DNA of 64,000 nt from Phlyctochytrium arcticum. Lineage: Eukaryota > Chytridiomycota > Chytridiomycetes > Chytridiales > Chytridiaceae. Made by a program: the position numbers and the translations under genes. The stretch is from NCBI GenBank assembly GCA_025602905.1, contig JAHLKI010000003.1, forward strand, positions 682,001-746,000, given 5' to 3'. Positions 9,691-61,662 of the stretch are shown one piece after another. Each line of letters starts with the position of its first letter. Within the stretch, counting starts at the first letter, position 1. The notes beneath the pieces were generated by a model. That model did not search any database. It saw only the letters and a list, made by a program, of their open reading frames with translations, and was not told where the DNA came from.

Positions 9691-10110
9691 TAAGACAAGT
9701 AGCAGGGAAAGAGGTTCTGACAACAATAGAAAATATGATTAAAACAATGGTACAAGTCAAGACGGCCTGGGTGCTCCTCCACTTGGGAGCGTGCTACTGC
9801 TCCTTTTTATACTAAAATATAATGCCCTTTCTATCCGCTACATTGCCTACTCTGCCGGGCCTGCTGCCTAATCCAATGTCGTGCTCTCCTTTGTGATTGG
9901 CTTCTTGATGGTGTGCTGTGGTGTACTTTCCTCTCATTGGTTCCTAGGTCCGGCATGCTTTCCGTGTTGATTGGCTCCGGGTGGTGTGCTGATTGGTTGA
10001 TTGTGAAGATGGCGTGCTTTCTGGCGTGATTCCGGTTGATTGTGGTCTTGGACATCCGAAGAACACTGGAACTCAACGGGATGGGTGGCAGAACTTCTTG
10101 AGAAGCATTA
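9691..10110. other. Non-coding stretch with clustered ATTGG boxes
   Basis: No gene supported. Between 9890 and 10035 the word ATTGG (CCAAT on the minus strand) occurs four times, mixed with GTGTGCTG and GGCGTGCTTT words. It may be an LTR or promoter remnant of an element lost at the MULE-2 junction; no paired copy exists in the window. Confidence 0.3.
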
Positions 10111-31617: not shown

Positions 31618-31742
31618 TATTGCTGCGTGTCTTCTTCTTGATGGAAGAACGGCACATTCAACTCTCGCTATTCCGTTGGAGCTTAACGAGACAAGTACAT
31701 GTCACTTTGGCCCTCGATCTGCAATTGCCAACACCCTTCGGG
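31618..31742 (+). repeat. 125-bp segment duplicated inside the helicase, source copy
   Basis: Encodes the helicase stretch after Walker A (IAACLLLDGRTAHSTLAIPL). The same 125 bp recur at 32428-32552 with five differences, offset 810 bp (270 codons). Confidence 0.85.
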
Positions 31743-32427
31743 AGGTTGACTTGATCATCTGGGACGAGGCTTCTCGATATGCGATTGAAGCGGTTGACCG
31801 TACTATTCGGGATGCACTTGATGTCAACAAGCCATTTGGTGGCAAAGTGATGCTCTTTGGAGGTGACTTCAGGCAAATTTTGCCAGTTGTTCTACAAGGT
31901 GGTCGGTCGGCAACAGTTGGGCGCTGTTTCAAAAAGTCACCCCTTTGGCGTCACGTTATAACGATGAATTTGACCATCAATATGCGTCTGCAGTCACGGC
32001 CAGACTTCCAGCAGTTTCTACTTGATGTTGGTGAGGGCAGAAACGGTGCGCGTGTGAACATTGAGGAATCCATGGTTGCTACAGGGAACAACCTGGATGG
32101 TTTGATCGATGACATCTTTGCGGACGGCGCTGACTTTGAAGATCGAGTGATCCTCGCTGTCAAGAATGACGACGCTCAGATGATCAATTGTAGGGTGGTA
32201 GAACGTCTGCCTGGTGACTTCCGCGAGTGCTTGAGCGCTGACTACATTGATCAAGAGGACGCCTCTACTTATACTGTAGAGTTCCTCAATACTCTGCAGC
32301 TTTCGGGACTTCCTCCCCACAAGCTTGAGCTCAAACCTGGCCAGTTTGTCATGCTCCTCAGGAACCTCAACCCTTCGCGTGGTTTGTCAAACGGAACTCG
32401 CTTGCGACTACTTGAGGTGGTATCGCA

Positions 32428-32552
32428 TATTGCTGCGTGTCTTCTTCATGATGGAAGAACGGCACATTCAACTCTCGCTATTCCGTTGGAGCTTAACGAG
32501 AGAAGTAAATGTTACTTCGGCCCTCGATCTGCAATTGCCAACACCCTTCGGG
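32428..32552 (+). repeat. 125-bp duplicated segment, ectopic copy
   Basis: About 96% identical to 31618-31742 and in the same reading frame. It replaces the point where the helicase should pass from NGTRLRLLEV into its C-terminal motifs. The flanks show no TIR. Confidence 0.85.
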
Positions 32553-32642
32553 GGCGTGTACTCCTCAAGTTTGAAAAGTCGCGTCCGGTTTCACAAGCGG
32601 TGTTTTTTTGCAAGGAGCCAATTGTCAAATGCGGTTTATTTG

Positions 32643-32874
32643 GTTAGAATCTGGTGGTTGTGCCTTTAGCTTCCCAAACAGCATTAACTACTCTACTCTG
32701 CCTATCATATAAATAATCTATATGCTCGACAGGTAGTTTTGCCCACTCCTCTTTCAGAGCTTTAATGAGATCTGGCTTGCCGGTGGGCACGGGACGTCTC
32801 TCTCTGACTGCCTTTTCCAATCTGTCCCAACGTTCTTCGATAGCATTCAAATCCGGTGAGCAAGCCAGCAACAA
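32643..32874 (-). pseudogene. Tc1/mariner-like C-terminal fragment
   Basis: A 76-codon minus-strand frame with CSPDLNAIEERWDRLEKAV, the region around the third acidic residue of Tc1/mariner or pogo-type transposases, then a tail VVNAVWEAKGTTTRF. Its first codons overlap the outermost 12 bp of the inverted repeat, so the rest was cut off where that repeat begins. Confidence 0.6.
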
Positions 32875-33201
32875 TGGGTGGGACGTTCCTGTCCTAGGAC
32901 TGTCCTAGTGGCAAAGTTACGCAAAATTCGGCACCTGGCAAAGTCATGTAGTGACCGACGGACGCGTTGCGGGCACTCCGCGGCGACGGGGCGCGCAATG
33001 CATCACAATTCCAAAAACAAATCAACTTCCATCAAGGCATCCAAAATTTGCAGAGAGATAGACTATATTTTATGGCAAAGAGTAGAAAGGAAACCGGAGA
33101 AAATGTGAGAAAGAGAAGGAAACTACACTACAAACTATGATTAAGGAGCTAAACTAAAAAGATAAATAAACTAGGACTTGCTGAAGGAATCTGCGCCAGA
33201 G

Positions 33202-33432
33202 TCAAGACGACTTGGAGGAAGAAGCAGGGCCAAACAGACTCAGAATGTTACCATCCTTCGCGGTCACTCTTTTCTCGCACCGGAGTTCTGTCCCATTACA
33301 CGTTCTTTTGTTGGAACTGCAGTATGGGCATTGTCGTTCACAGCCATTTTGCGCACCATTGCATATCTTGCCTTTCCCCTTGCACGAATTGCACCGCAAG
33401 GCGACCTTTCTCTTCTTCTTTGGTGGCTCTAG
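33202..33432 (-). CDS. Cys-rich basic exon, left-arm copy
   Basis: Mirror of 39283-39513: PPKKKRKV followed by eight spaced Cys. See the right-arm copy. Confidence 0.45.
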   Translation of the reverse strand, partial: LEPPKKKRKVALRCNSCKGKGKICNGAQNGCERQCPYCSSNKRTCNGTELRCEKRVTAKDGNILSLFGPASSSKSS

Positions 33433-34048
33433 AAACAGCAGGTTTATATACAACGAGGATATGCCAGGTATGGGGCTAAGCCCAATACAGAGACGAATGT
33501 AAACCAAACACAGAGGAAGTCTGCAAAAAAATGGCAGAGGTTCCATATACAGAATGCCCCTGGTCATTCTCACTGCCAATTCCATTGAGCGCTCCTCTAA
33601 AACCATGGCTGTGTGCAAACCCCCCTCCCATCTTGGGTTGGCTTTGGAAATCAAGGCTGTGTGCAATACCCGCCCAGTCAATGCCATTCCACCATTGATA
33701 CTCATTCCCTGCATCACTCACAAACGGCCATGCCAAGATGCCATCTATTTTCCCACGCTCAGGCCATGCCAAGATGTAATCTGGCTTTCGGACTCGGCCT
33801 ACGTCCTCAAGAATTTGCCCAGAGATTTCAACTCAAGGCCCTCCATCACTTACCAACTGCCATGCCAAGATGCAATGTGATTTCCCACGCTCATGTGTAG
33901 CAAATTTAGCTTTGGGACTCGGCCTACGGCCTCGAGGATTTGCCCAAAGATTTTGGAGTCCGAACAGGTCACGTGGGGCACGTGGTTCGGACGGATTCTA
34001 TTTTAATGTATAGAATTTAACAATTGGAGGCTAAATTCTTGTTCTTAC

Positions 34049-35370
34049 CTAACCATAAGTTTGATGAAGGAACCGACGCCAAGGGACAAAGGGATGAGGC
34101 CGGCGCAGGGGACAATGTTGAAGGACAGCCAGTGTGGAGGATTCTGTCGGGAGGATTGTGGAAGCCGAGGCTGCTGTGGCGGTTATTACGGAAGAAGCAG
34201 GAGGTGGTGCCGATGCAGGGGGTTTGGCTTTATCCCCAAAAAGTTTTGTGACTCTTCGATACACCCTTTTCTTGAAAGCTTCCAACTCAAGCAATTCATA
34301 CTCCAAGGGGTACCATATCTTGGCATTGGCGTAAGGCTTCGCCCATTCCCACCGACGGCCGCTTTGCTGATAGCGCACAGCAAACCAATCGACAATGTTA
34401 TCTTTGCTGGTGGGACGGTTTTCTTTGTTGTCATTCTCATTCACCGTTAACTAACAAGGTGTCAGGAAAAGCAACAAATAATAATATACTGCAAAGAAAA
34501 CTTACCGCTTCGATGGCTGCCTCCGCGTCATCTTTCTGGTTTCTTAACGCTTCCCATCGCTTTTCCAACGTTTTTGGGAGCCGGTATTGGAGATCATGTG
34601 TTAGGAGCAACATCAGCTCCATCAGTGATAGGAACTTCTGTTTTGGGTACGTGAGGGCCGACTTCTGGATCGCCTCAAAGATATCATGCGCTATGGCGCT
34701 CTCCAAATTGTCAAATGGTGCGTTGGTGGGGGCTCTCGGGCGAATTAGAATGATAACTTGCGGGGTGTATTTTTCAGTCTCGCTCTGACTTCTCAATTTC
34801 TGCCGGACCTCGGTGACCTCTGCGGCCATAAGCCCATCCTCCAATGCTGCCTCAAATGGTGTTTGGTCCACAAAGATGCTGGAGTCAATGAGAGCCACGT
34901 ACGCCTTGACGCGTTGTTCAATCGCAGCAAACAATTTGAACCCCAGTATACGCCCATGATCCTTGACATCCTTCACCATGTCTTGGAATTGCGTGACGGC
35001 TGCGTTGTACAAGAGCATGGCTACAAGCGGGCAGTACTGGTCTTTGACATTGGCCTTCCAAGCGATCCCTTCCATCTGCGTCAAGACGTTGCGCAGCAAG
35101 ATACTGTATACTCATCCTTGCTGAATGTGCTACGCGACACATCTAGGAAGTTCATACCCAAACAGTTGAGAAATTCGGCGGACGTGAGCCTTCTGCCTGG
35201 GCGGAGAACAGCAGGTGAGGCAGCCATGAGGGATTGCTTTAAGGGGCCAGCTCTAATTTCCTTCTTTTGCATACCCTTGAGCGACAGCTGCTGGAGATCC
35301 GAGGCTCCGATAGGGTCCTCTGGTAAACCCTCCTCGTTGAGTGGAAAAAAAACTTTCCAGAACGACACTT
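34049..35370 (-). pseudogene. Transposase C-terminal half, left-arm duplicate
   Basis: A minus-strand mirror of 37345-38666. Frames 35368-35081, 35099-34437 and 34444-34049 match those of the right arm apart from a few substitutions. It lacks the catalytic core, which lies only in the spacer, so it cannot encode a transposase alone. Confidence 0.7.
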
Positions 35371-35797
35371 TTGGCTACAGGACCGCAGTGGGTTGGAGAT
35401 TTTTTAGTCCCATGCCTTGCTTTAAGCGACGGATGATTTGCAAGGCATACTCTGTCGTATCCGGAATATCTGGGATGTACTCACGCGTCACCAACGTGTG
35501 CTGCAGGACAGTGAGAATATCGAAATTGTGGATGGATGAGATTCGGCTAAATTTGATTCCGCAGTCGTGGTTGCGCTTGAAATAAGTGGTAGGAAATCGA
35601 CACGCAATACCTCAAACTGAATTGAAGCGCCTACCTTGATTACGAAAAAACTCAAAAGCCTGTGAGCTAGCTCAGGACCTATCTAGCGGTTGCTGAGCTT
35701 CTTGAGCAGGGCGTTGGTGCTTTCTAATCCACTGGTATGAAGGAGTTTAACCTTCTCGTTGTTTTCTTCGTAGGTGTTGGAGCCATTCATGTGCAGG

Positions 35798-36917
35798 AAG
35801 AAAAAAAAACTTTGGGTAAAGACTATACTTCATTTAGCCATATCTGGGAGGTCTGTCCTGGGAGATCACCCCAGCCTTGGCCAGAGCGTTCCCTTACTGT
35901 CTCACTTTGAAGGCGGGATTATCAAGGATGTTGTGGGTGGACATTTACCATAACATCATCGGTCCAAACAGCCTAAACCCTTATCTCCGCACCCTGAAAC
36001 GCGCGAGAAGCGAAAGATGGTCCTACTTGTGCGGCATTTTCAATGCCAGGATGGAAACCCAGTTTTCAACGGTTGAACCGAGCCTTCACCCAACTTCACG
36101 CCCACTAGCGGAATACTTGGCGCAGCAGGACGTCTATGAAGGCAAGGGTCTTCTAAACTGTTGGCTGGCACTCACTGAAGGTGCCCTGGATGTTGCAGAA
36201 GCCACAATGTCCATGTCCAGGGCAAAGAAGTGTATCTCCATAGACGCCACGTACAAATATTCCAGCCATATTTGCGTGTACGACCCAGCACCCGGAAAAC
36301 ACAACACCCCCGAGTCAATGAAAAGACTTCATATAGTCCACAATGAAATCGGGCAAATTCTGCATATCGCTTTCATTGGCAGTGAAAGCCATGAGCACAT
36401 AGGACCAACGTTAGACAAAGTTCTTGCAAATGCTGACCAAGAACGATGGACCCCCACAGGTGAGAAAGACTTGATTGGCACCTTGAACATGACTCGTACT
36501 GAGAGCATCTTTAATCAGCGGATCATCCGATAATGCTGATTACCGACAATGTCCATAACGTCCAAGGCCTGGTCAACCAAAAAAATCCCCACATAGAAGT
36601 GAAGCAAGACCCATGGCACCTAATGAACCGGTATTTCAATATGACTTTGGCTAATTATTCGATTGCTAACGACGGCTGCATTGTTTTAATAGGATTTTAT
36701 CTAAGATATCTTACAAGCCTGAACGGCCGCGCGTGGCAGGCGCCCTGAAGGCGGCACTATACACAGAGTCAAAAGACCTCAGACCACCCGAAGAAGCAGC
36801 TGTTGCTTTCGAGACAGCATGCCAAAGTGTGGACCGCAACAATAGTATTAGTGCGGCCTCTTTGGAAAAGTGGAGTGGCACGGTGGAGGCAAATGCCCAG
36901 CTGATTCGGGATGGCTG
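35798..36917 (+). other. Unique 1,120-bp spacer of the inverted repeat
   Basis: Single-copy centre between the two arms; it carries the catalytic part of the transposase (see 35877-38666). Confidence 0.85.
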
Positions 36918-38666
36918 CCTGCACATGAATGGCTCCAACACCTACGAAGAAAACAACGAGAAGGTTAAACTCCTTCATACCAGTGGATTAGAAAGCACCA
37001 ACGCCCTGCTCAAGAAGCTCAGCAACCGCCAGATGGGTCCTGAGCTAGCTCTCAGGCTTTTGAGTTTTTTCGTAATCAAGGTAGGCGCTTCAATTCAGTT
37101 TGAGGTATTGCGTGTCGATTTCCTACCACTTATTTCAAGCCCAACCACGACTGCGGAATCAAATTTAGCCGAATCCCATCCATCCACAATTTCGATATTC
37201 TCACTGTCCTGCAGCACACGTTGGTGACGCGTGAGTACATCCCAGATATTCCGGATACGACAGAGTATGCCTTGCAAATCATCCGTCGCTTAAAGCAAGG
37301 CATGGGACTAAAAAATCTCCAACCCACTGCGGTCCTGTAGCCAAAAGTGTCGTTCTGGAAAGTTTTTTTTCCACTCAACGAGGAGGGTTTACCAGAGGAC
37401 CCTATCGGAGCCTCGGATCTCCAGCAGCTGTCGCTCAAGGGTATGCAAAAGAAGGAAATTAGAGCTGGCCCCTTAAAGCAATCCCTCATGGCTGCCTCAC
37501 CTGCTGTTCTCCGCCCAGGCAGAAGGCTCACGTCCGCCGAATTTCTCAACTGTTTGGGTATGAACTTCCTAGATGTGTCGCGTAGCACATTCAGCAAGGA
37601 TGAGTATACAGTATCTTGCTGCGCAACGTCTTGACGCAGATGGAAGGGATCGCTTGGAAGGCCAATGTCAAAGACCAGTACTGCCCGCTTGTAGCCATGC
37701 TCTTGTACAACGCAGCCGTCACGCAATTCCAAGACATGGTGAAGGACGTCAAGGATCATGGGCGTATACTGGGGTTCAAATTGTTTGCTGCGATTGAACA
37801 ACGCGTCAAGGCGTACGTGGCTCTCATTGACTCCAGCATCTTTGTGGACCAAACACCATTTGAGGCAGCATTGGAGGATGGGCTTATGGCCGCAGAGGTC
37901 ACCGAGGTCCGGCAGAAATTGAGAAGTCAGAGCGAGACTGAAAAATACACCCCGCAAGTTATCATTCTAATTCGCCCGAGAGCCCCCACCAACGCACCAT
38001 TTGACAATTTGGAGAGCGCCATAGCGCATGATATCTTTGAGGCGATCCAGAAGTCGGCCCTCACGTACCCAAAACAGAAGTTCCTATCACTGATGGAGCT
38101 GATGTTGCTCCTAACACATGATCTCCAATACCGGCTCCCAAAAACGTTGGAAAAGCGATGGGAAGCGTTAAGAAACCAGAAAGATGACGCGGAGGCAGCC
38201 ATCGAAGCGGTAAGTTTTCTTTGCAGTATATTATTATTTGTTGCTTTTCCTGACACCTTGTTAGTTAACGGTGAATGAGAATGACAACAAAGAAAACCGT
38301 CCCACCAGCAAAGATAACATTGTCGATTGGTTTGCTGTGCGCTATCAGCAAAGCGGCCGTCGGTGGGAATGGGCGAAGCCTTACGCCAATGCCAAGATAT
38401 GGTACCCCTTGGAGTATGAATTGCTTGAGTTGGAAGCTTTCAAGAAAAGGGTGTATCGAAGAGTCACAAAACTTTTTGGGGATAAAGCCAAACACCCTGC
38501 GTCGGCACCACCTCCTGCTTCTTCCGTAATAACCGCCACAGCAGCCTCGGCTTCCACAATCCTCCCGACAGAATCCTCCACACTGGCTGTCCTTCAACAT
38601 TGTCCCCTGCGCCAGCCTCATCCCTTTGTCCCTTGGCGTCGGTTCCTTCATCAAACTTATGGTTAG
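35877..38666 (+). pseudogene. DDE transposase of the inverted-repeat element
   Basis: The core lies in the spacer: AFPYCLTLKAGLSRMLWVDI, then D1 in ISIDATYKYSSHICVYDPA (about 36245), then after a frame change near 36531 D2 in LITDNVHNVQG with DPWHLMNRY (about 36540-36630). An intron ends at about 36692, and LLHTSGLESTNALLKKL probably bears the Glu. It continues into the right arm with EYIPDIPDTTEYALQIIRRL, a 220-aa frame (37616-38278) and, after an intron (38209-38262), a final exon to 38666. The order of blocks resembles the DUF6729-type DDE proteins, the same clan as the exonuclease element at 47-52 kb. Frameshifts make this copy inactive unless further introns exist. Confidence 0.65.
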
Positions 38667-39852
38667 GTAAGAACAAGAATTTAGCCTCCAATTGTTAAAT
38701 TCTATACATTAAAATAGAATCCGTCCGAACCACGTGCCCCACGTGACCTGTTCGGACTCCAAAATCTTTGGGCAAATCCTCGAGGCCGTAGGCCGAGTCC
38801 CAAAGCCATATTTGCTACACATGAGCGTGGGAAATCACATTGCATCTTGGCATGGCAGTTGGTAAGTGATGGAGGGCCTTGAGTTGAAATCTCTGGGCAA
38901 ATTCTTGAGGACGTAGGCCGAGTCCGAAAGCCAGATTACATCTTGGCATGGCCTGAGCGTTGGAAAATAGATGGCATCTTGGCATGGCCGTTTGTGAGTG
39001 ATGCAGGGAATGAGTATCAATGGTGGAATGGCATTGACTGGGCGGGTATTGCACACAGCCTTGATTTCCAAAGCCAACCCAAGATGGGAGGGGGGTTTGC
39101 ACACAGCCATGGTTTTAGAGGAGCGCTCAATGGAATTGGCAGTGAGAATGACCAGGGGCATTCTGTATATGGAACCTCTGCCATTTTTTTGCAGACTTCC
39201 TCTGTGTTTGGTTTACATTCGTCTCTGTATTGGGCTTAGCCCCATACCTGGCATATCCTCGTTGTATATAAACCTGCTGTTTCTAGAGCCACCAAAGAAG
39301 AAGAGAAAGGTCGCCTTGCGGTGCAATTCGTGCAAGGGGAAAGGCAAGATATGCAATGGTGCGCAAAATGGCTGTGAACGACAATGCCCATACTGCAGTT
39401 CCAACAAAAGAACGTGTAATGGGACAGAACTCCGGTGCGAGAAAAGAGTGACCGCGAAGGATGGTAACATTCTGAGTCTGTTTGGCCCTGCTTCTTCCTC
39501 CAAGTCGTCTTGACTCTGGCGCAGATTCCTTCAGCAAGTCCTAGTTTATTTATCTTTTTAGTTTAGCTCCTTAATCATAGTTTGTAGTGTAGTTTCCTTC
39601 TCTTTCTCACATTTTCTCCGGTTTCCTTTCTACTCTTTGCCATAAAATATAGTCTATCTCTCTGCAAATTTTGGATGCCTTGATGGAAGTTGATTTGTTT
39701 TTGGAATTGTGACGCATTGCGCGCCCCGTTGCCGCGGAGTGCCCGCAACGCGTCCGTCGGTCACTGCATGACTTTGCCAGGTGCCGAATTTTGCGTAACT
39801 TTGCCACTAGGACAGTCCTAGGACAAGAACGTCCCACCCATTGTTGCTGGCT
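36918..39852 (+). repeat. Right arm of the 2,935-bp inverted repeat
   Basis: Partner of 32863-35797. The outer end reads GTCCCACCCATTGTTGCTGG near 39832-39851. The flanks outside the two arms show no target-site duplication. Confidence 0.9.
39283..39513 (+). CDS. Cys-rich basic exon with PKKKRKV
   Basis: This frame opens near an intron acceptor (TTTCTAG at about 39283-39289) and encodes EPPKKKRKVALRCNSCKGKG and then Cys pairs (NGCERQCPYCSSNKRTC, LRCEKR), ending at TGA 39511-39513. Eight Cys in about 50 residues suggest a zinc-binding domain. The basic PKKKRKV is a classical nuclear localisation sequence. It may be the last exon of the transposase or a separate small gene of the element. Present in both arms. 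Confidence 0.45.
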   Translation, partial: LEPPKKKRKVALRCNSCKGKGKICNGAQNGCERQCPYCSSNKRTCNGTELRCEKRVTAKDGNILSLFGPASSSKSS

Positions 39853-46034: not shown

Positions 46035-47630
46035 CAGTGACTTCCAAAAACGTTCCAATGTTTGGATCTTTTTCAAAGACTATGAAATTTGACAACGAAA
46101 ACTTACAAAATACAGGATGAAGGATAATACAAAAGTGATTTTATATATAAGCCGAAGTTGTTTATCTAATACAGTAAAGGTCAACAGCCAACCTGGGCCT
46201 TGGAATTAGCATTCGAAAAAAAATAATCATTGGAACGTTTTTGATGCATACCACAAAAAATTAGGATTCAGTACTTTGTGTGCCCTCCTTTGGCCTTAAG
46301 AACTGCCTCCACTCGTCGGGGCATACTTTCAATCAAGTTTTGACAGACGCAGGCAGGAATGTGGTCCCATTCTTCCTGAACACGTTCCCAGAGTTCGTGA
46401 ATAGATGCAGGAGGTGAGGGGTAACGTGCCAGCTGTTTTTTCAGATGTGACCATAGGTGTTCAATAGGATTCAGATCCGCACTTTGAGCCGGCCATTCCA
46501 TCACCTTCAAACCGTGGTCCTCAAACCACTTTCTGGCCAAACGACTTGTATGTTTGGGATCATTGTCTTGTTGAAAAATAACGCTCCTTGGCCGTAACTT
46601 GTAATACCGAAGGCTAGCTTGAAATTCGTCCTCCAGAATTTGACAGTAGAGTTCGGCATCCATTCGGCCGTCGATCTTTGCGGCATATCCCGGCCCCTGC
46701 CAGAACATACAGCCCCACATCATCAGAGACCCCCCACCAAATTTCAATGTTCCTGGCACAGACCTATCAGACAGGCCCTCCCCTGGCTTCTTCCACACCC
46801 ACTTGCGTCCGTCTGACCCCAGACGATTGATCTTGGTTTCGTCAGTCCACACAACCCGTTTCCAGGCCTCCAAAGTCCAATCCTTATGTGCCAAAGCCCA
46901 ATCCATACGAGCCTTGCGATGACGTGGTAAGAGTAAAGGCTTCTTTTGCTTGACAGCAGCCTTCAAACCAACCCGTTTCAGTTCCCGACGCACTGTAGAG
47001 GGGGAAACAACTTTGTTGGTAACGTCTTGTAAAGCACGAGCAACAGCAGGTGCAGTTTCAGCTTCACCAGAGGTAACCATGGAAACTGCCCGAGACACAT
47101 TTCGTTGTGAAAGAAGCTTGGGTCGACCGGGAGATGGCAATGGAGCATCCGGAAGTAGTGCTGACCTGACTCTGGAGACCGTGCCTTGACCTACACCCAG
47201 TGCTGAAGCAATCTGTTGGGTGGAACGTCCAGCAGAGAGCTGGGAGAGGATGTTGTTTTTGGTGTCTGGTGAAAGTGGACGCATGACAAATAATGAAGGA
47301 GAAATTGGTGCTGGGCCAGTCTTTTATACCCAGGGGATCAGAAAAAAGCCACAGCTGTTGCCATAGTACCTGTTACCATTGTAACAATCCACTTGGGGGG
47401 GGTACATCCATGCTGCGCAGCAAAAACGTTCCAATGCATGCCAGAGGTATAAAAAATAATTCTGAGGCCTACATGCTATATATCCCTCCACTCTCATAAT
47501 GTAAGATGTACCCTGGATACTGTTGATCATTCTTTCATTAATGGAGGCCCCCCAAATCCGTACTTCCATAGGCAAAAAGTATGTGTTTCAAAAAATATTG
47601 AAAACATTGGAACGTTTTTGGAAGTCACTG
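46035..47630 (-). mobile_element. Intact Tc1/mariner element, 1,596 bp, TA target
   Basis: Ends CAGTGACTTCCAAAAACGTT (left) with the exact inverse at 47611-47630, flanked by TA at 46033-46034 and 47631-47632. The binding word AAAAACGTTCCAATG also occurs internally at about 46226-46240 (inverted) and 47411-47425, about 190-200 bp from each end, giving two sites per end. The single gene is uninterrupted, so the copy is a candidate for recent activity. Confidence 0.9.
46268..47284 (-). CDS. Tc1-family transposase, intact, 338 aa
   Basis: One frame from ATG 47284 to stop 46268; the length (338 aa) is standard for Tc1. The N-terminus has a helix-turn-helix (MRPLSPDTKNNILSQL, STQQIASALGVGQGTVSRVR), a GRPK linker, then a second helical unit. 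Catalytic residues: D in VVWTDETKIN, D in IFQQDNDPKHTSR, and E in WPAQSADLNPIEHLW, spaced 34 residues after the second D (DD34E). The tail is NLIESMPRRVEAVLKAKGGH. It binds the terminal motifs and carries out cut-and-paste at TA. No lesion is visible, in contrast to nearly all other transposase genes in the window. Confidence 0.9.
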   Translation of the reverse strand: MRPLSPDTKNNILSQLSAGRSTQQIASALGVGQGTVSRVRSALLPDAPLPSPGRPKLLSQRNVSRAVSMVTSGEAETAPAVARALQDVTNKVVSPSTVRRELKRVGLKAAVKQKKPLLLPRHRKARMDWALAHKDWTLEAWKRVVWTDETKINRLGSDGRKWVWKKPGEGLSDRSVPGTLKFGGGSLMMWGCMFWQGPGYAAKIDGRMDAELYCQILEDEFQASLRYYKLRPRSVIFQQDNDPKHTSRLARKWFEDHGLKVMEWPAQSADLNPIEHLWSHLKKQLARYPSPPASIHELWERVQEEWDHIPACVCQNLIESMPRRVEAVLKAKGGHTKY

Positions 47631-47735: not shown

Positions 47736-50700
47736 ATGTCCTCTACTTACATTGATGGTGTAATGAGCGGCAAGCAACATCAAGCGTCATCCAGAAGCAA
47801 ACAGCGTGAAGGAGCACTTGGCTCTCGCGGAAAGACCTTAGCCAGTCATTTTGCTTCAAGCCGTTCGACGGATCCAGCAACAGTCGTTAATGCAGCTACT
47901 GCGGAATCCGACATCCATAATGCGTCTGCTGCGCAACCCACTGCCTCTGACCGTTTTTCCCAGACACCCGCATTGGATGCGGCAACTCCTTCCACTGCCA
48001 ACATGATCATCGCCAATGTCTTGAACGAGCAACACATATCTTCCTCCGCTAGCGCCGCAACTGATCAATCAGGCAATACAGCGCCGCAACCAAGAAAACG
48101 CCTCCGACAGTAGAGCCCCGGACGATCTGAAGACGAACGCATCGCAGAGGAGCGACCGGAACGAGCTGCTGAAGATGGCGCCCAATGACAACCTTTCCCG
48201 TTCCCTAGTCATATTAAAGTTGATCCCAAGATGACAAGCGCGGCATGGGCTCTGCTGGAGCAGCTGCCAGCTCTCGAATGCAATATGTACAGCAGCCAGG
48301 CAGACTTCGTCCAGTGGATCCGAACAGTGGTTAAATACTGTGATAAGGCCAAGCTGCCGCTTCCATTCAATGACTTCTGGACGAACCGATCAACCCGGCC
48401 TTCAGTTCTCTTGAAAATACTCACCTATTGGCGTACAAGTTTCCGGTACTGGATCATTTCTTCTTGAAGGTGAAAATTGATGCCGCTTTTTGCTTTCAAC
48501 CCCTACTGACTCCATGCCTGCAGCCTGTCTTTCTTTAGATCCCCGAGATGCAATTTGCAGGGTTATTGCAATGAAAAAGGCCTTGCTGTCCTCATTGTAA
48601 AAGCTCAGCCAAGGTTACTCGTGAAGACTTGAATAGGTATACTCGTAGGGTTGTGCTGGATGATCGGGTTGGAAGGAAGCCCTACGCATCATCATCCGGG
48701 CTTCGAAAGCGGACATGTTGACAGCTGCATTGTACACAATCAACAATGAGTATGCACAGGTCGTTGCGCAAATGGTTATGTTCACTCAGAGCATTTCCGA
48801 TCTATCGGATCGAATGCTGCTGTTGGCATTGCGGTATAGAACCCATGGCTTCGCGGCGGTAAAAGTTATTTTGAGTGATAACTGTTGTAGTTATCGCAAG
48901 ACATTCGAGGAGGTCTTGGAGGACATGGGCTACCGAAGTCCTGCCTTACCCGCCGCCGCCGCCGGTCGAATAACTGAGGTGGAAGACGAACAGCAGCAAG
49001 AGTTGCGACAGTTGCAATTTCCCATGGATAAGAGGCCGAAACTTGTCGATGCTGCCAGTGATGCTGGCATTCGGCTGGTTACTCTTGCTGAAGAATTGAA
49101 AGGCTAAACTGATGGCGAGAAGGTGCTGGGGTTAGATGCAGAGTGGAGCTGTGCTCTGATCAAAGGTGCTACGAACATTGTGGCAACCATCCAGCTATCC
49201 GCCGCTGATGGCACCTTGTACCTGTTTCATATCCGAAAGAACAAACGCCAGCAAAAAATTACCTTGCCTTCCGATTTGACGAAGCTTTTGGAGGTAGAAC
49301 CAATCAAGTTTGTTGGTGTTCACATTAAAGCAGACATCACAAGAATTTCCCGAGCCTACAATGTGGAAATTCCAGAGCAACGCGTGTGCGAGCTGATTCA
49401 CTTTGCCAGACAACGTAAACTGGGCATCGCTGGTCGGAGTTTGGCCGCAATGGTCCAGCAAATGCTGGGTAAGACACTGGATAAGGATCCAAAATTGCGG
49501 TTATCTGATTGGGAGCGGCCCGAATTGACAAGGGCGCAGGTGCAGTACGCTTGCCTGGATGCCTATGCGGGAATCCTCTGCTTCATGTACGTCGTCGAGA
49601 ATGGTGACGCTATATTTGATTCTGCCGGCGCAGTCAAGTTGGGTGGCATGCTGAATATGTACTCCAAAGGAAGAGTAGAAGCAGTCGCCACCGGTAGCAT
49701 TGTTGACTCAAGGCCGTACACTGTCTTTGAAACGCTCTCGGAGCTCAAAGCGAAGCACTATCTTCGGACAGTTGTAAGAAACAGCAAAGTCAGCCGGCAG
49801 TTCATTCGTCTGACCGAGGTGCTGGTTCCTGCATATAAACCGCACTACACCTCTGGCAGCATCAAGAAGCTCGGAGGGGAAGACAAGTCTCTGCTGGAGG
49901 TCGGGAATGTTGTATTGTGGGATGACAAACACATACAAAAACCCAAACCCCCCGCCCCCTTACAAACGCTTCGGCCCTCACAAATGGATTACACCATAGC
50001 ATTCACCACACCCTCGGACAAAGAGAGGTTTTTCGACGACGATACCCAGCCCTGTCACAAGAGTATTCGGGCGATTCGTGGTGGAATTTTTGAGATGTCC
50101 GTTGACAAAATAAATCAAAGTTTCCGGGAAACCAAATTCAGCAAGCTGGATGACGTGACATACGGCGAAACAAGACCAACGGACTCGAATCCCAATACTC
50201 CCCCAGTGTTGCTGGATGCACTCCATGCGATGAATCGTATATCCAAATATCTCAAGAAAAGCCATGAGGCATTTCACCCATTCATGGCACGATTTCGTGA
50301 CACTCTCTTTATGGTATCGGCCGGTGACGTCGAGTTGGTCGAAGAAGTACTAAGAAAGCAAGGATTGTCGGATGCGGATATCGAAGAAAAAAAGGATATA
50401 GAGTGGAGGTTCTTTCTCAAATATTGCCAACGACATACACCCGAACCAAAGGAGCTTGAACGTAGGCTAATCGATTGTTGAACTTCTTTGCCGAGATCGT
50501 TGACGACAAAACAAAAGAGCCGCTGTTTAGCAAAAAGGCCTGGAAGCAGTTTGAAAGTTTTCTTAACCACGTTTGCAACGGTTGCTTGAGTGACAGTGAT
50601 GACGTCGACCTCTACTACGAAGCAGGAAGATTTGAAAATGGACTCCCCGTTTGGCGCTGCATTGGAGGCACCATTGCGATTGAAGGATACCACAAACAAA

Positions 50701-54822: not shown

Positions 54823-55089
54823 ATGTTTTATAATTTCGAGAAACCGCTTGAATCAATACATGACACTATGGTTGTGACATTTCATATAATTGAGTCTTTA
54901 GAGAAACGGAAGGAGTATTTTAAAGACATCAAAAAGTTAGAGAATATCGAGCAAGACACCATTACATACCTCAAACTCTCAATGAAATTAGAAGAGTTGT
55001 CCGACAAATACAGAGATTTCTTCGAAAAAAAGAAACCCAGGTTCAAAAGAGTTCCCGTGGACAATGAACTAAATAAACACCTGTTTTAG
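54823..55089 (+). CDS. Hypothetical helical ORF, 88 aa, convergent with receiver gene
   Basis: From ATG 54823 (the frame is open from 54697) to TAG 55087-55089. Almost entirely helical and charged: FEKPLESIHDTMVVTFHIIE, KRKEYFKDIKKLENIEQDTI, LKLSMKLEELSDKYRDFFEK. No recognised domain; a four-helix bundle such as an HPt domain would be attractive beside a receiver, but the diagnostic His context is not evident. Its 3' end overlaps the 3' end of the receiver gene by about 20 bp. Confidence 0.35.
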   Translation: MFYNFEKPLESIHDTMVVTFHIIESLEKRKEYFKDIKKLENIEQDTITYLKLSMKLEELSDKYRDFFEKKKPRFKRVPVDNELNKHLF

Positions 55090-55140
55090 TTTATCCAAAG
55101 TGATTGGTTTCATAATAAACATATCAGCACCGGCTGTTAA
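55069..55140 (-). pseudogene. Response-regulator receiver gene, 3' piece
   Basis: The minus strand from TTAA (55137-55140) to TAG 55071-55069 encodes GADMFIMKPITLDKLKQVFI, the end of a CheY-like receiver with the conserved Lys-Pro. It is the continuation of 61364-61662 on the far side of the TTAA-flanked element. Confidence 0.8.
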
Positions 55141-55969
55141 GGGTAGTCACCGACTTATAATTGATTTTTTCTGACGCGTTTTGGGCCTTGTGCTACCGTA
55201 ATTTTGGCAGGAGATAAATGAACTCTTGGACAGATTTCTGCGAATTTTAGGCAGCAGCCATTTCTGCTTGAAGCTCACCACCAAACCAAAATCTGACAAC
55301 GGATTCGGATTCCTGGCGTCAAAATTAGTTTTTCAACATATCCATTCCTCTCTAGCGTTTTTCTTTGCCGAGAGATTCAGTCTCAGTGGCGCCGTGGAAC
55401 AACCAGGTGCAGACCGGCTGGTTGCAATGCACCAAGCCACTTTTCCACTATGCAATTCAACTCAAAGGCGTTCGAATGGCTGTAGCCGCGCATCGCGAGA
55501 TCCAAAAACAAATAATTTTGGGAACCTTTTGTCAGTCACAGTTGGTGGGAAAAACAGCGCCATATGTAAATAGTTGGTGGGGGGATTTTCCCTCGCCCTC
55601 CCTCTCGTTCAGTTCTACCTATAATCATATCAATAACAACGCCACCTACAAAACACCGCAGAAATCTTTGTCTTGCTCATCAAAATTTATAACATCTATC
55701 CTGATCTTCTTTTTTACAACACAGTATCATAAGTGCGAGTCTTTTAATCACAGTGGTTGGGCAACAAGCTGCTCTGGACGAGGAACCTACCCGCAAGTCT
55801 GAAAGGAAAATTGCCAAACCGATTTGTTTTGCGAAATACAGTCCAAAACTTTGTCAAGACCGGAAGAAATCAACACGAACACCGGCTGCAAACGCTGCAC
55901 TCTAAGCGAGATGGGCACACAAGCGCTTAGATCCTGCTCTTGCTCAAAGTTCCAGCGAAACACCCGACC

Positions 55970-58900
55970 CCCAAGTAGAGGATGCGTCTCCTGAACTTGA
56001 TAGCTCAATGGATCAAACAGAGGATGCGTCTGCTGAACTTGATAGCTCAATGGATCAAGATGGCTCTTCGATCATGGGAGGATCCCAGGCTGCCGTTCTT
56101 GAGTCGGAAGAGAATGCGGATAGCTCAAGCGACGAAACCAAACCTTTTGCATCTGTTTCAACGTTCTCGTTATCCCATCCACTCCACACCGCGTCTGAGT
56201 TTATCAAAAGCAAGTACGGAATAACCATTACAACACTGAATCCCAACCACTTCCGCCAATGATCTACAGTATACCGGGTTTGGGGCAAAGACGGCAAAAT
56301 GACTTACCAGCCATCATGCGAAAAGTCCTGATTGATATATTTTCCATTTTTGCCCGGGAAGAAAACTGGCTTTACGCTCTCAAACGTACGCTGGATGACA
56401 AGGTATGAACTTTTTGCCTTGGATACTATGCTCTTTCATTCTCTAATTCTCACGGCTATATTACTTCCAAACCTTGCAGAGATTTGCCGATCGTTTTGGA
56501 TACAGCTCAAGGGAACGCTTCAATTTCAACAATGTGCGCAGCCATTTACCCACCATTGACGAGGCGCCAGAGCAGTTGCAGGATTTTGAGCAGCAAGAAC
56601 AAGAAGAGGATTTATTCTCTTTACAAAAAGCCGAGATTGATTCCCTACTAGTCGAACTGATACAACGAGAGCTCAAATTGCAGGAATGCCAAACGCAACT
56701 ACGGACTTTGCAGGTAAAAGTAATCCGAGACAAAGCCATACTGGATCAACAGAGGCAAGAACTTTCCATTTCAACAGAAGTTTTGTTGCAAAGCAAGGAC
56801 AAGACCATAGCAGCTCTTCAAGGCAAGATCGCAGAGCAGTTTACAGCAGCAAGAGAAAGCGTCCTTGAAGAGTAACTTGGGGGAGAAATATCAAGCAAAG
56901 CTGGCGGAGGCTGTGCAGATTGGGAAGGCAACAATCGATAGCAGGGTCTCGAGCGGGATAGCGGGCCTGCGTGCCAATTACAAAGCCAAGTTGGCGTCCA
57001 TGACGCAAAGGTAATCTGAGGAAGGGAAGGCCAAGCGGACGGCGGAAGCCAGGGCAAAGTACCATCAAGATCTACGTCGTAAGGAGGACACCAGCAACAG
57101 CGACGACAATGTGGGAATTGATGCTGCAATAGCCGACTTCATTTCTCTCGGTGGTACTGGCGAAACAACTGCGATGGTCGGATCCACAATACTATGCGAG
57201 ACGGAAGTGTTTCTTGGTCTTATTTTACACATTCCATGTGAAAAATGCAACTTCGTTGGGCGTCCTGAGACCATCAAAGTTGAGAAGACTGGATATGGGG
57301 TGAAATTTCATGTTTCCTGCGGAAAATGCGCAGCTAGAATCTGCCGCAGAAATTTTAAGCGTTCAGAAGCTAAGGCGGGGACTGAAAGAGCCAACTTGAC
57401 TACAGCTGTTATTGTGGGAGCGCTTAACGCGGGCGTCAATCGCTATCAGTTAGTATCCCTCTTTAACATGATCAGCATTACCCAACACCCTTCGGAGTCA
57501 ACATATTTCAAGATTCAAGGCACCAAAACCGCGCTTTCAATATTCAAGAAAGCTTGCGAAGTATCTGTGGCAAATGCAGCTCAAAGGGTTCTATTTTATT
57601 GTCAAACCATCCCATTGCTTGCCTTTGTCTGTGCAACTGCAGATGGTGGTTGGAGTCATAGAGGGAATGCTGGCAAGCAGCATCTGGAGATGAATCTTAC
57701 CCTTCGGACATGTGAGTATTTGAGCTATGCTAATAGGTGCGGCTCTCAGTCTAATAACGTGCACCAATTATAGCATTCAGCACAACACTCAATCCGCGCA
57801 GCAGAACCTTAGCTGACGGAACTGTAAGAAGCGTACGTGAAGGCAACTTTGAAGAGTCGTCGAAGCACATGGAGCACCAAAATCTCACTGTGGCTACGTT
57901 CAACCTTCACCAGCCATTGACTGACGCAGGGATGAAGCTGCATCTCACAAAAGATGGGGATTTACAAGCGAATCAACTCCTCGCGCGAGAACCACTTGTT
58001 GAGAAACACTATGCGGATCTCCCCCATTGGAACAAAAATGTGAGGAAAAACTGGGAGAAGAAATACTCTTCAATTTGGGGGCCCAGCTGGGAGGAAAAAA
58101 TCTGCTCTCATCCACGCAACGTCGTTTATGTTCTTGGTGAGCTGCGGCGCAAGGAGGCGGAAGATCTTTTAGAATTGAAAAGACAAGGCCTTAAAGGAGA
58201 GGCTCCTGCTGCTAAGGACTGGGAAGCTATTGCGCGTGAGCAACTGGTCCCTGTCTTCATACGGCATCTACAAGGTGAGGTACACTACAACAGTGATGAG
58301 CTGGAAATCCAAAACTGATCATCCTTTGATGTTTCTCTTATAGATGATCACACATCATGCATGGATGAACTTTGCTGGGCAGCCCAAACCAACACCGAGA
58401 TAGATGTGTCATTGCCCAATCTTGTCAACAAACCGACAGCTATAGTTGAAAAGTTTACTCTTACGATCACCGATCTTTTTAAGACCTTGAAGGGGCAATG
58501 TCTTATTACACAAGACCGCACCACTATGAATGAAACCTTTCACAACAACGTGACGAAAAGATCGTCAAAGGAGATTGACACCCCTGCGGTTTACGAGACA
58601 CGGTACCGTTTACAGTATCTGCACATGAGCAAAATGAAGGAATAGAGAAGACTTTGGTACTTAGTCAATCTGCCTATGATCTACCCTGCTTTTCCCCGTC
58701 TGATCTGGTCTTGATCAAAACGTCCACCGAACAGCACCGCAAGCGCGTGACTACCAATCAGAATGCCATCGAGGACCGCAATGAGACCCGGGCCGCGCTG
58801 TATGCCAAGCGAAAAGCAGACAGCCATTCTTTTGACATGACGGGAACCTCCAACTATGTGTCTTACGGCGCGAGCTCACCAGCCACTATGCAGGACTTGT

Positions 58901-59100
58901 ACATCCCTTCCTGGGCCTCGCATATTCCCAACTTTACTAGCGAGAGCCTCTGCACTGGATGCAATCTGATACCCCCCCCCCGAGAGGATCTGGAAATGTG
59001 CGGCCTTTGTTCCTTATGCTATCTGGCTGTAGTACTGGATCGCATTGACGACCGTAGCATGATCGGGGCCAGACATCTGCAGACTGTGGAGACAATCTGA
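55970..59100 (+). pseudogene. Mutator-like DDE transposase part of a transposase-RecQ fusion
   Basis: The N-terminal part has a 13-residue tandem repeat (TEDASAELDSSMDQ, 55978-56055), a segment near 56320-56400, and, after an intron, a long coiled coil (56480-57100: DFEQQEQEEDLFSLQKAEID and following). From 57111 the Mutator-like fold begins: CEKC and CGKC zinc pairs, then D1 in CATADGGWSHRGN (about 57640). After an intron (57710-57772) come EGNFEESSKHME and D2 in LTKDGDLQANQ (about 57950). After another intron come CMDELCWAAQTN and E in MNETFHNN (about 58530). Lesions: a 1-nt shift at about 56870, a stop near 57014, a 1-nt shift at about 58640, and TGA 59098-59100. Past that TGA the same frame runs on into the helicase. 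Confidence 0.75.
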
Positions 59101-60884
59101 CGCAAAATTGGCCAGTCAGTTGACCTATTGGCTGAGGATCAAGCAGCAGCACTATTACGCCAAACTCTACAAACTGTTTTTAAACACGATAACTTCCGTG
59201 ACATCCAAGAAAAAGTACTCCATACGGTATAAAATAATCAAGATGTCATTGCAATTATGCGAACATCAGAAGGGAAAACCCTGTTACACGCTTTGCCAGC
59301 CGCCCTGTCTTTTCCCACAGGTGTCTATGTTTTCACAGTTGTCGTTTACCCACTGCTCTCACTCATAGACAATCAGATGAGGGAACTCACCAAGGCTCAT
59401 ATACCATGCGCGGTCTTGAATGGCAATACAACATTTGATCAGAAAGCATCAATACACGCTGATATCGGCAATCAAATCCTGAGGTGCATCCTCACAACCC
59501 CCGAGCAACTAGCACGGCTCAGCTTCAGCAAAATGATGCAGCATGTTCTAAGAAGCAACTACAAACAGATCCGTCTGGTAGTGGATGAGGCACATGTTGC
59601 TTTGGAGTGGAAGTCTTTTCGAAACTTTACGGGCGTTTACGAAATTAAGAAAGAGTTCATGATTCCAACGCTGCTTCTGAGCGCCACCCTTACCCAGCGC
59701 AACGCTTTGGAGTTATCTCAACTGTTCGGACTCAAGGATACTGTCACGCTCATGAGTCAAAATTTGGCAAAACCTAATATCGAGTACAAGATGACCAGCA
59801 AAGGAAAATCCAGTTATCCGCAGGCCATCGATACTCACATCTCACTCTGGAATTGGACAGATCAGCTCGGAATACTTTATTGCTCTACAAGATCCCAGAC
59901 CGATACGATCGCGGAAATCTTGGGCAAGATGCAAGTGGAAGTAGAGGCTGGTAGCAAAAAGTACAAGTACAAAGTGACAAAATACCACGCCGATATGCCT
60001 CTAGCTGACCGCGACGCCAACCAGCTCGCGTGGGAAACAGGTGAAGCCCTGATAATGGTTGCAACACGTGCCTCCGTACTTGGCATCAATTGCTCCAACG
60101 TCAGATTTGTAATCCACACAAAGATGCCAACGTCAATGGGTACCTTTCTACAGGAATCCGGTCGAGCCGGCAGAGATGGGCAGTTTTGCCGAAGCCTGGT
60201 GATTCTTTCAGTAGCCTGGCAGAAGAAAAAGGCAGATGCTATCGTCTCTTCTGCTCTCTTTGATTACCCCAGCGAGTTTCTCACTATAGAGGAGCAGCAG
60301 GATTTGCGCCTCCGACAGAGAGCGGTGAAGGAAGTACAAGTGTACTTCGAAGACCAGATCACATGTCATAGATCCTACCACCATTTTTTTTCAACCCGGA
60401 GCAGAGAGAGGCACTCCACCCACGACGTTGTCTATCACCAACTTTCCAACGCCAGTATCTGAACGCTATTCCATGTGGAATATGTCAAGATGGGGAAGCG
60501 CTAGAACAACTTGAGGAGGTGCACGTTGGGGATGCGATTGAGGACATCTTACACATAGTCAAGTATCTTTCAGAATCACCATTTTTCCTCGATGTTACGC
60601 CAGCGGTGGTAAGAGACATATACACCAGGGCCAAGTCAATGCAAAAGCTCGGAATGAACCCTGAAGAACTACAACCATTGCTTCAAGCGCTTCACCCATC
60701 TCATCTCACTCAGAGCGCCACTGATTTGCTGTTGAAAAAGATGGCTTGGGTCGGGGTCATTGCGGAGGATGTGACATTCGCGAATGGGCAACTCATGGTC
60801 AACATACGGCCTGGATCAGCCACGGACTACTCTATAATTTCAAAAATGATCCGGCCCAAACAAAAATCAAAACGAAAGAGGTGA
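59101..60884 (+). pseudogene. RecQ-type helicase part of the fusion
   Basis: Directly in frame with the transposase after TGA 59098-59100. FKHDNFRDIQEKVLHTV is the RecQ motif 0 region, then TAA 59230-59232, Walker A as RTSEGKTLL, VVYPLLSLIDNQM (Ia), Walker B VVDEAHVALEW, LLSATLT (III), ILYCSTRSQTD (IV), ATRASVLGINC (V), and QESGRAGRDG (VI). After T8 at about 60383 a 1-nt shift leads to PCGICQDG (zinc Cys pair), and a helical tail ends in basic KQKSKRKR at 60884. RecQ enzymes unwind DNA 3' to 5'. All seven helicase motifs are readable, so decay is recent relative to other relics here. Confidence 0.8.
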
Positions 60885-61129
60885 GCACCGGCTTATTGCA
60901 AATCAAATTTGGTTCACATACTGACTAAGGCTTTCCACTGAAGGGCATAGCTCTAACCAATAGTCACCTACTAATGTTTTACATATCCTACCAGTTTATT
61001 CACTATCTTTATATTTTATCCTTGTTCCTTCCTTTTATAACTTATTTTCAATCGTAATACTACATAGTCAGAAGCCCAAACCTATTCCATTGCTTGCGAA
61101 ATGGTCCAGCAATTGTCTTGGTGAAAAAG
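60885..61129. other. 3' non-coding part of the TTAA element
   Basis: AT-rich, no gene, ends at the subterminal inverted repeat. Confidence 0.5.
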
Positions 61130-61363
61130 ACCGCTAGAGAGGCACGGATATGTTGAAAAACTAATATTGACCCCAGGAATCCGAATCCGTTGTCAGATTT
61201 TGATTTGGTGGTGAGCTTCAAGCAGAAATGGCTGCCACGTCAAAACACCTTTTTCAAAATTGAAACTCCGGTCCATCTGAAATTTGTGTGTAACCTGAGT
61301 TACTAGTGAGCTCCGGCAGAAAAAAAGCGCGTTTTTAACTAGTAAGTCGGTGACTACCCTTAA

Positions 61364-61662
61364 CGACGGCTCCAGCATTTTAGCATCAGCAGAAATAGCG
61401 ATTATCTTGACGCTCTCATCGACCATATTGTCGCTTTCCCAGAGCTGTAATGTTCGAATAACATCTGTCCCTGTTTCAAAAATTTTGCTCTTGGGCTCGT
61501 CGAGCAGTATATCACATAGGAAGAATGAGATGTCATTTTTGAGAATGATGTCGATTGCAGTCTTGGCCAATGAAACCAAGAATATGCATTTATCTGTTAG
61601 TTGGAGACGAGCCGCCTAAGAACCGATCTCGTAATCGCATTGTCGTCAAGGACTAGAATCAT
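61364..61662 (-). pseudogene. Response-regulator receiver gene, 5' piece
   Basis: Minus strand from ATG 61662: MILVLDDNAITRSVLRRL (acidic pair of a CheY-like receiver), a 1-nt frameshift at about 61597, then SLAKTAIDIILKND, FFLCDILLDE (phospho-acceptor Asp in CDIL), TGTDVIRTL and VKIIAISADA (the conserved Ser), up to TTAA. With the 3' piece the protein is about 123 aa, the size of one receiver domain, with Asp-Asp, Asp, Ser and Lys all present. It would act as a phospho-acceptor in two-component signalling; as found it is split and frameshifted. Confidence 0.8.

Follow-up and report, generated by a model that had tools for sequence, protein, structure and literature searches.

What kind of transposable element carries a DDE transposase and a RecQ helicase between ends that are flanked by TTAA? 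The question is raised by a 6.2-kb element of the chytrid fungus Phlyctochytrium arcticum that occupies positions 55141 to 61359 of a 64,000-nucleotide stretch of contig JAHLKI010000003.1 (assembly GCA_025602905.1, positions 682,001 to 746,000 of the forward strand). The whole of this stretch is called the window here, and its numbering is used throughout. The original prediction, made from the sequence of the window, held that TTAA targeting, this DDE type and a RecQ helicase were not known together in any described superfamily, and proposed a candidate for a new type of element. That claim of novelty does not stand: the fungal KolobokH lineage of the Kolobok superfamily has already been described, by Kojima and Bao (2022; PMC9587614), as combining TTAA targeting, such a DDE transposase and a RecQ helicase. 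The element is very probably the decayed remnant of a cut-and-paste DNA transposon that was once autonomous and belongs to the KolobokH lineage of the Kolobok superfamily, an assignment made by way of published feature descriptions. It is best placed as a new family within that described lineage, not as a new class of element. The ends of the element and the host sequence that adjoins them are the following.

55141..61359: whole element of the P. arcticum window, 6.2 kb, TTAA-flanked
55137..55140, no strand: left TTAA target-site duplication (sequence re-read; empty-site test)
55141..55157, plus strand: left terminal inverted repeat, 17 bp, beginning GG (5'-RR), within a 22-nt perfect inverted pair
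55245..55373, plus strand: left subterminal inverted repeat, complementary at 88% to its partner 61116-61244
61116..61244, minus strand: right subterminal inverted repeat, partner of 55245-55373
61343..61359, minus strand: right terminal inverted repeat, ending CC (YY-3'), partner of the left 17 bp
61360..61363, no strand: right TTAA target-site duplication (sequence re-read)
61364..61615, minus strand: first part of the interrupted host frame, a response-regulator receiver domain (Response_reg match of the joined flanks)
55069..55136, minus strand: closing part of the interrupted receiver-domain frame, with its stop codon at 55069-55071 (joined flanks; paralogs)

Re-reading of the sequence bore out the predicted TTAA at both borders, the identical 17-bp ends and the subterminal inverted repeats. 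The ends, together with TTAA and one further base, make up the 22-nt perfect inverted pair (55136-55157 with 61343-61364), and the subterminal repeats pair over 129 nt at 88%. A chance origin of the ends is ruled out by shuffle counts and by a census of the whole window, the quantity counted being TTAA-bounded inverted pairs lying 300-15000 bp apart. In 100 mononucleotide shuffles of the window there were no such pairs of 10 or 12 bp and a mean of 0.21 pairs of 8 bp. The unshuffled window holds nine at 17 bp, eight of them nested concentrically in one unrelated large inverted duplication and the remaining one belonging to the studied element.

The element interrupted a host response-regulator gene. 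Joined with one TTAA, its flanks read as an open receiver frame of 107 amino acids on the minus strand, which matches Response_reg at 3.5e-6 (27.6 bits, slightly under the 30.2 cut-off). A search of the same genome with this frame gave 29 rows, of which 26 cross the junction (23 stop-free and 3 with stops); the remaining three comprise a short row that stops before the junction and both halves of the interrupted frame. In the two alignments that were inspected, with paralogs on contigs C5 (65%) and C29 (43%), the junction is ungapped. Because the joined flanks read open and the paralogs run ungapped through the junction, the second TTAA is a true 4-bp target-site duplication. A PDB search with the joined receiver fragment returned only three designed TIM barrels, in single stretches that are not significant.

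Between these ends the coding part of the window copy comprises the following pieces.

56447..56872, plus strand: predicted coiled-coil region of the transposase (open frame; long helix only in a low-confidence model)
57015..57711, plus strand: transposase exon holding the first D (ADGGW, 57642-57644), a C2C2 motif (by eye a zinc ribbon) and the PF20700 match (Pfam; end inferred from a GT splice site)
57774..58274, plus strand: transposase exon with the second D (57953-57955), DLPH (58016-58027) and the first Cys of the inserted zinc finger (58103-58105) (alignment with sister copies; limits inferred)
58344..58645, plus strand: transposase exon with the conserved zinc-finger Cys (58358-58360) and the catalytic E (NETFHN, 58532-58534) (alignment with sister copies)
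58579..59100, plus strand: linker and C2C2 motif (CTGC...CGLCSLC) leading from transposase to helicase, in another frame, ending at an in-frame TGA (open in sister copy L055)
59233..60459, plus strand: RecQ-like helicase core (Pfam, NCBIfam and PDB matches)
60372..60884, plus strand: helicase C-terminal piece in a shifted frame (resembles, by eye, the C-terminus of a 783-aa open frame at locus L054)

The family calls of the original prediction, a Mutator-like DDE transposase and a RecQ helicase, are upheld by domain searches. The exon that holds the first D matches PF20700 (Mutator-like) at 3.8e-9, and 59233-60459 matches DEAD at 1.3e-16 and Helicase_C at 2.6e-16. The best NCBIfam name for the helicase is recQ_fam TIGR00614, at 8.8e-55, but its 186.3 bits fall below the 219.8-bit cut-off. 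Among PDB entries the helicase finds RECQ1 at 7.8e-31, with RECQ1, BLM and E. coli RecQ among the best structures; a profile search of the PDB with the transposase gave a single acyl carrier protein match with an E value of 0.36. The catalytic residues can be followed through copies elsewhere in the genome (loci numbered L). The first catalytic D is present in six of seven copies, L039 having N; the second D was placed by alignment of the window copy with L054, L055 and L056. The pattern NE[AT] at the E occurs in five copies (window, L054, L055, L056 and L039), and a search for it in L057 gave no match. DxxH, as DLPH or DLTH, is found in six of the seven copies that reach the site, L037 reading DLTP. 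The DH[ST]xC of the inserted finger is present in all six copies that reach it, and the fourth position of that finger is Cys in five copies and Ser in L056.

The coding track of the window copy had been predicted to continue in a single frame interrupted only by a TGA and a TAA; it is more heavily damaged than that. Both stops lie between the transposase and helicase halves, and the piece with the E motif (58319-58645) is in frame 2 while the linker (58579-59100) and the helicase (59233-60462) are in frame 1, so that a frameshift also splits transposase from helicase. The C-terminal piece (60372-60884) is in frame 0, so that the frame shifts once more ahead of the C-terminus. Upstream, the window copy has its coiled-coil piece (56447-56875) in one frame and the piece with the first D (57015-57770) in another, whereas L055 has both in a single open frame. 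Relative to L055 there are small deletions in the exon of the first D and across the acceptor of the first intron; judged from this alignment, the true acceptor of the intron before the exon of the second D appears to be deleted. The damage amounts to at least one frameshift, two stops and small deletions, and the window copy can no longer make the full protein. Its transposase half is annotated as a protein of 743 aa (P0002, identified by sequence). Repeat-induced point mutation (RIP) was considered as a source of the stops and set aside: there is no sign of it, since the RIP indices of the element resemble those of the flanking DNA.

That transposase and helicase are parts of the same gene in one mobile element, as originally predicted, is borne out by the sister copies. 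One of these, L055 (C3:232800-239500), is 96.6% identical to the window copy over 4.9 kb; freed of two introns, which are inferred from splice signals and frame, it reads stop-free for 1220 amino acids from the coiled coil through D, D and E and the linker with its zinc ribbon to RecQ motif VI. Because its ends are absent, its DEAH box is shortened and a frameshift follows motif VI, L055 shows the fused frame and not a working protein. About 40 kb away, at C3:278552-278793 (L001, L042), lies a left end with TTAA that is 98% identical to the first 242 bases of the window element; this end and L055 are possibly two parts of one split copy. A diverged copy on contig C14, 5.8 kb long including the flanking 4-mers, has the same ends and gene order and TTAA on both sides. 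It is annotated as a single protein with both halves (P0001, 1445 aa), in a gene model that omits parts of the transposase, among them the inserted finger; the DNA on C14 still encodes the finger, in a broken frame. The same copy has DEAY in the DEAH box and frame breaks in the transposase.

The linkage extends to other loci. Searched against its own genome, the helicase piece of the window gives 36 rows that make up 26 loci, and the transposase piece gives 12 rows that make up 10. At 7 of the 10 transposase loci (8 of 16 when weaker fragments are added) a RecQ match follows on the same strand no more than 5 kb downstream, and a transposase match stands beside 8 of the 26 RecQ-matching loci. 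At C4:954103-955236 and C83:11191-12324 (L016, L017) there are two RecQ-like genes that score equally and are 36% identical to the helicase of the window element, each in a 649-aa open frame; no transposase was detected alongside. The terminal motif GGGTAGTCACCG occurs at 19 sites in the genome, as against 2 for the reversed control, and 13 of the 19 are directly preceded by TTAA. One short copy, on C18, measures 584 bp including the flanking 4-mers and has TTAA on both sides and GG...CC ends. At C3:1129787-1129814 (L050) two left-type ends of the element family stand head to head with one common TTAA, perhaps as the result of one element having inserted in another's duplication, and at C4:1321252-1321658 (L033, L034) a fragment of the family's transposase adjoins TTAA and the end of another family member.

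Comparison of the copies shows that the fusion is of long standing. Between L055 and L054 the proportion of non-synonymous differences (pN) is 0.14-0.23 and that of synonymous differences (pS) 0.78-0.87, the latter saturated, across the RecQ core, the linker and two DDE segments; for L055 against L056 the corresponding values in one DDE segment are 0.35 and 0.84. These values show protein-level constraint on the DDE, linker and RecQ parts alike, and the fused protein has thus been kept by selection over long times. The few changes that separate the window copy from L055 give a ratio of non-synonymous to synonymous change (dN/dS) of 0.82 in the DDE part and 1.05 in RecQ; the recent copies appear to be decaying.

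How closely does such an element conform to Kolobok? As described by Kojima and Bao (PMC9587614), Kolobok elements duplicate TTAA, have 5'-RR/YY-3' termini unlike those of piggyBac and carry a C/DxxH signature; almost all lineages have a zinc finger between C/DxxH and the E, with a very conserved third Cys, and a second finger, of CCHC type, after the first D is given for KolobokP, E, D and 5 and for a few further lineages. In the chytrid family the window insertion is flanked by a 4-bp duplication of TTAA, the C14 and C18 copies likewise have TTAA on either side, and the termini of all three read GG...CC, which is 5'-RR/YY-3'. Its putative DDE triad has DxxH between the second D and the E, and a predicted zinc finger with a conserved Cys precedes the E; on our reading the Cys of DH[ST]xC would correspond to the third Cys of the predicted Kolobok finger. 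KolobokH in particular is matched by the RecQ domain downstream of the transposase, by the fungal host and by the lack of a visible CCHC finger after the first D: no CCHC pattern was seen there by eye in the aligned copies that reach the second D, whose interval between the first and second D has at most one Cys, apart from single scattered ones. The exceptions to this match are L037 (DLTP) and L039 (N for the first D), both of them decayed distant copies. The name KolobokH is also used in PMC10799480 and PMC10989895, and the latter gives Cladobotryum mycophilum and Rhizophagus irregularis as hosts. The C. mycophilum element described there has two RecQ-like genes and a third gene, spans ca. 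10.5 kb and is telomere-adjacent, whereas the chytrid element apparently has one gene for both domains within 6.2 kb. A literature search on transposons of P. arcticum found no paper naming the species.

Two other kinds of element invite comparison. AcademH is also a helicase-encoding transposon, but its target duplications, 9 or 10 bp according to PMC10045372, are not TTAA, and it is ruled out by their length. With MuDR and Mutator-like elements (MULEs) the family shares the C/DxxH signature (PMC9587614) and the Mutator-like name of its Pfam domain. The MULE domain PF10551 found no match in the seven element pieces that were scanned; it does match a true MULE transposase domain, distinct from the studied element, elsewhere in the window (10102-10644, plus strand, 3.5e-25). 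MULE target duplications are usually 8-11 bp.

Several observations weigh against the assignment to KolobokH. The search for other copies that the original prediction called for brought linked copies and, on C14, TTAA-flanked shared ends, but no examined copy is known to be intact: L055, the C14 copy, L037 and L039 are each damaged. Three of the 10 transposase loci (8 of 16 with the weaker fragments) have no nearby RecQ match, and 18 of the 26 RecQ-matching loci have no transposase match, some of these probably being ordinary helicases. TTAA is missing before 6 of the 19 GGGTAGTCACCG sites and is one-sided in two short copies, one on C11 (692 bp including 4-mers, flanks TTAA and ATAA) and one on C1 (636 bp including 4-mers, flanks TTAA and CACA). 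The AlphaFold model of P0002 has a mean predicted local distance difference test score (pLDDT) of 41.4, too low-confidence to show the fold. The Pfam label is Mutator-like, not Kolobok. Finally, protein-database searches, which were scored by shared words and took in the ~7990 candidates with the most shared words each, found no relatives of the transposase outside P. arcticum, only P0001, P0002 and P0079.

The last two points would suit a new superfamily apart from Kolobok, defined by a Mutator-like transposase, RecQ and TTAA targeting: at word-match sensitivity the transposase has no kin beyond this species, and its domain bears another name. Such a superfamily is nevertheless improbable and is rejected because PMC9587614 describes the same feature set as KolobokH; duplication, termini, C/DxxH, finger, want of a CCHC finger, RecQ and fungal host, that is, every Kolobok or KolobokH feature examined, are found in the chytrid family. 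Less probable still is a piggyBac-type element, or a pair of piggyBac ends, that hosts an inserted and unrelated transposase-helicase gene, an outcome that the original prediction had named as its own undoing. piggyBac does likewise duplicate TTAA (PMC9587614), and a gene with a piggyBac domain is present in the same genome (C10:377670-378828), but the RR/YY end nucleotides are unlike those of piggyBac (same source), and around the 19 GGGTAGTCACCG sites, out to 200 kb on the same contig, there is none of the genome's four piggyBac-domain matches. The piggyBac domain PF13843 found no match in the seven scanned pieces of the element, and the long, diverged C14 copy shares both ends and gene order with the window element. 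That a host RecQ gene, telomere-linked or other, merely adjoins a transposon fragment by chance, as the 18 RecQ-matching loci without a transposase neighbour might suggest, is hardly credible in view of the constant order and strand at 7 of 10 transposase loci with RecQ within 5 kb (absence of such linkage in other copies was the second ground for withdrawal named at the outset, and it too fails), the single stop-free spliced frame of L055 and the annotated fusion on C14, the protein-level constraint across the linker, and the enclosure of both domains by matching TTAA-flanked ends in the window and on C14.

As a member of KolobokH, the intact element would have had one intron-containing gene for a protein with a coiled coil at its N terminus, followed by a zinc ribbon, a DDE transposase of the RNase H type and a RecQ-type helicase; a linker carrying a second zinc ribbon would connect transposase and helicase, and a zinc finger, of predicted fold and zinc binding, would be inserted before the last E of the transposase. 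By analogy with the family, the transposase would bind the terminal and subterminal repeats, excise the element and insert it at TTAA; the helicase, in the same polypeptide, may act during synapsis or repair by unwinding the element's ends, the donor site or the target site. Short, internally deleted copies would be mobilised in trans, and those with the same ends (e.g., the copy of ~580 bp on C18) have probably moved in this way. That the helicase is physically fused to the transposase and that the linker is under constraint speak for a functional role of the helicase within the transposition protein, not for cargo. A more specific proposal is offered tentatively, as one that may well prove wrong: that there is a chytrid sublineage of KolobokH with transposase, zinc ribbon and RecQ in one polypeptide, in which the helicase, no passenger, would act directly in excision, target opening or replicative repair. 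If true, helicase and cut-and-join activities would be physically coupled. KolobokH has been little described so far. With a clean empty site, short non-autonomous derivatives, copies that differ in age and one sister copy whose frame is fused, the chytrid family provides material for asking why a RecQ helicase should be attached to a DDE transposase.

The window has other features as well. An open reading frame (ORF) for a PIF1 helicase (31343-32644, plus strand; PF05970, 6.5e-72) is possibly part of a Helitron, and just to the right of it lies an inverted duplication (32863-35800 and 36915-39852) with arms of 2.94 kb that are 99.4% identical and separated by a 1.1-kb spacer; two ORFs in its left arm found no match in Pfam. 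A Tc1/mariner-type transposase is encoded on the minus strand at 46271-47323 (PF01498 and PF13358), and an ORF with a 3'-5' exonuclease domain lies at 49108-50478 on the plus strand (PF01612, 2.5e-12).

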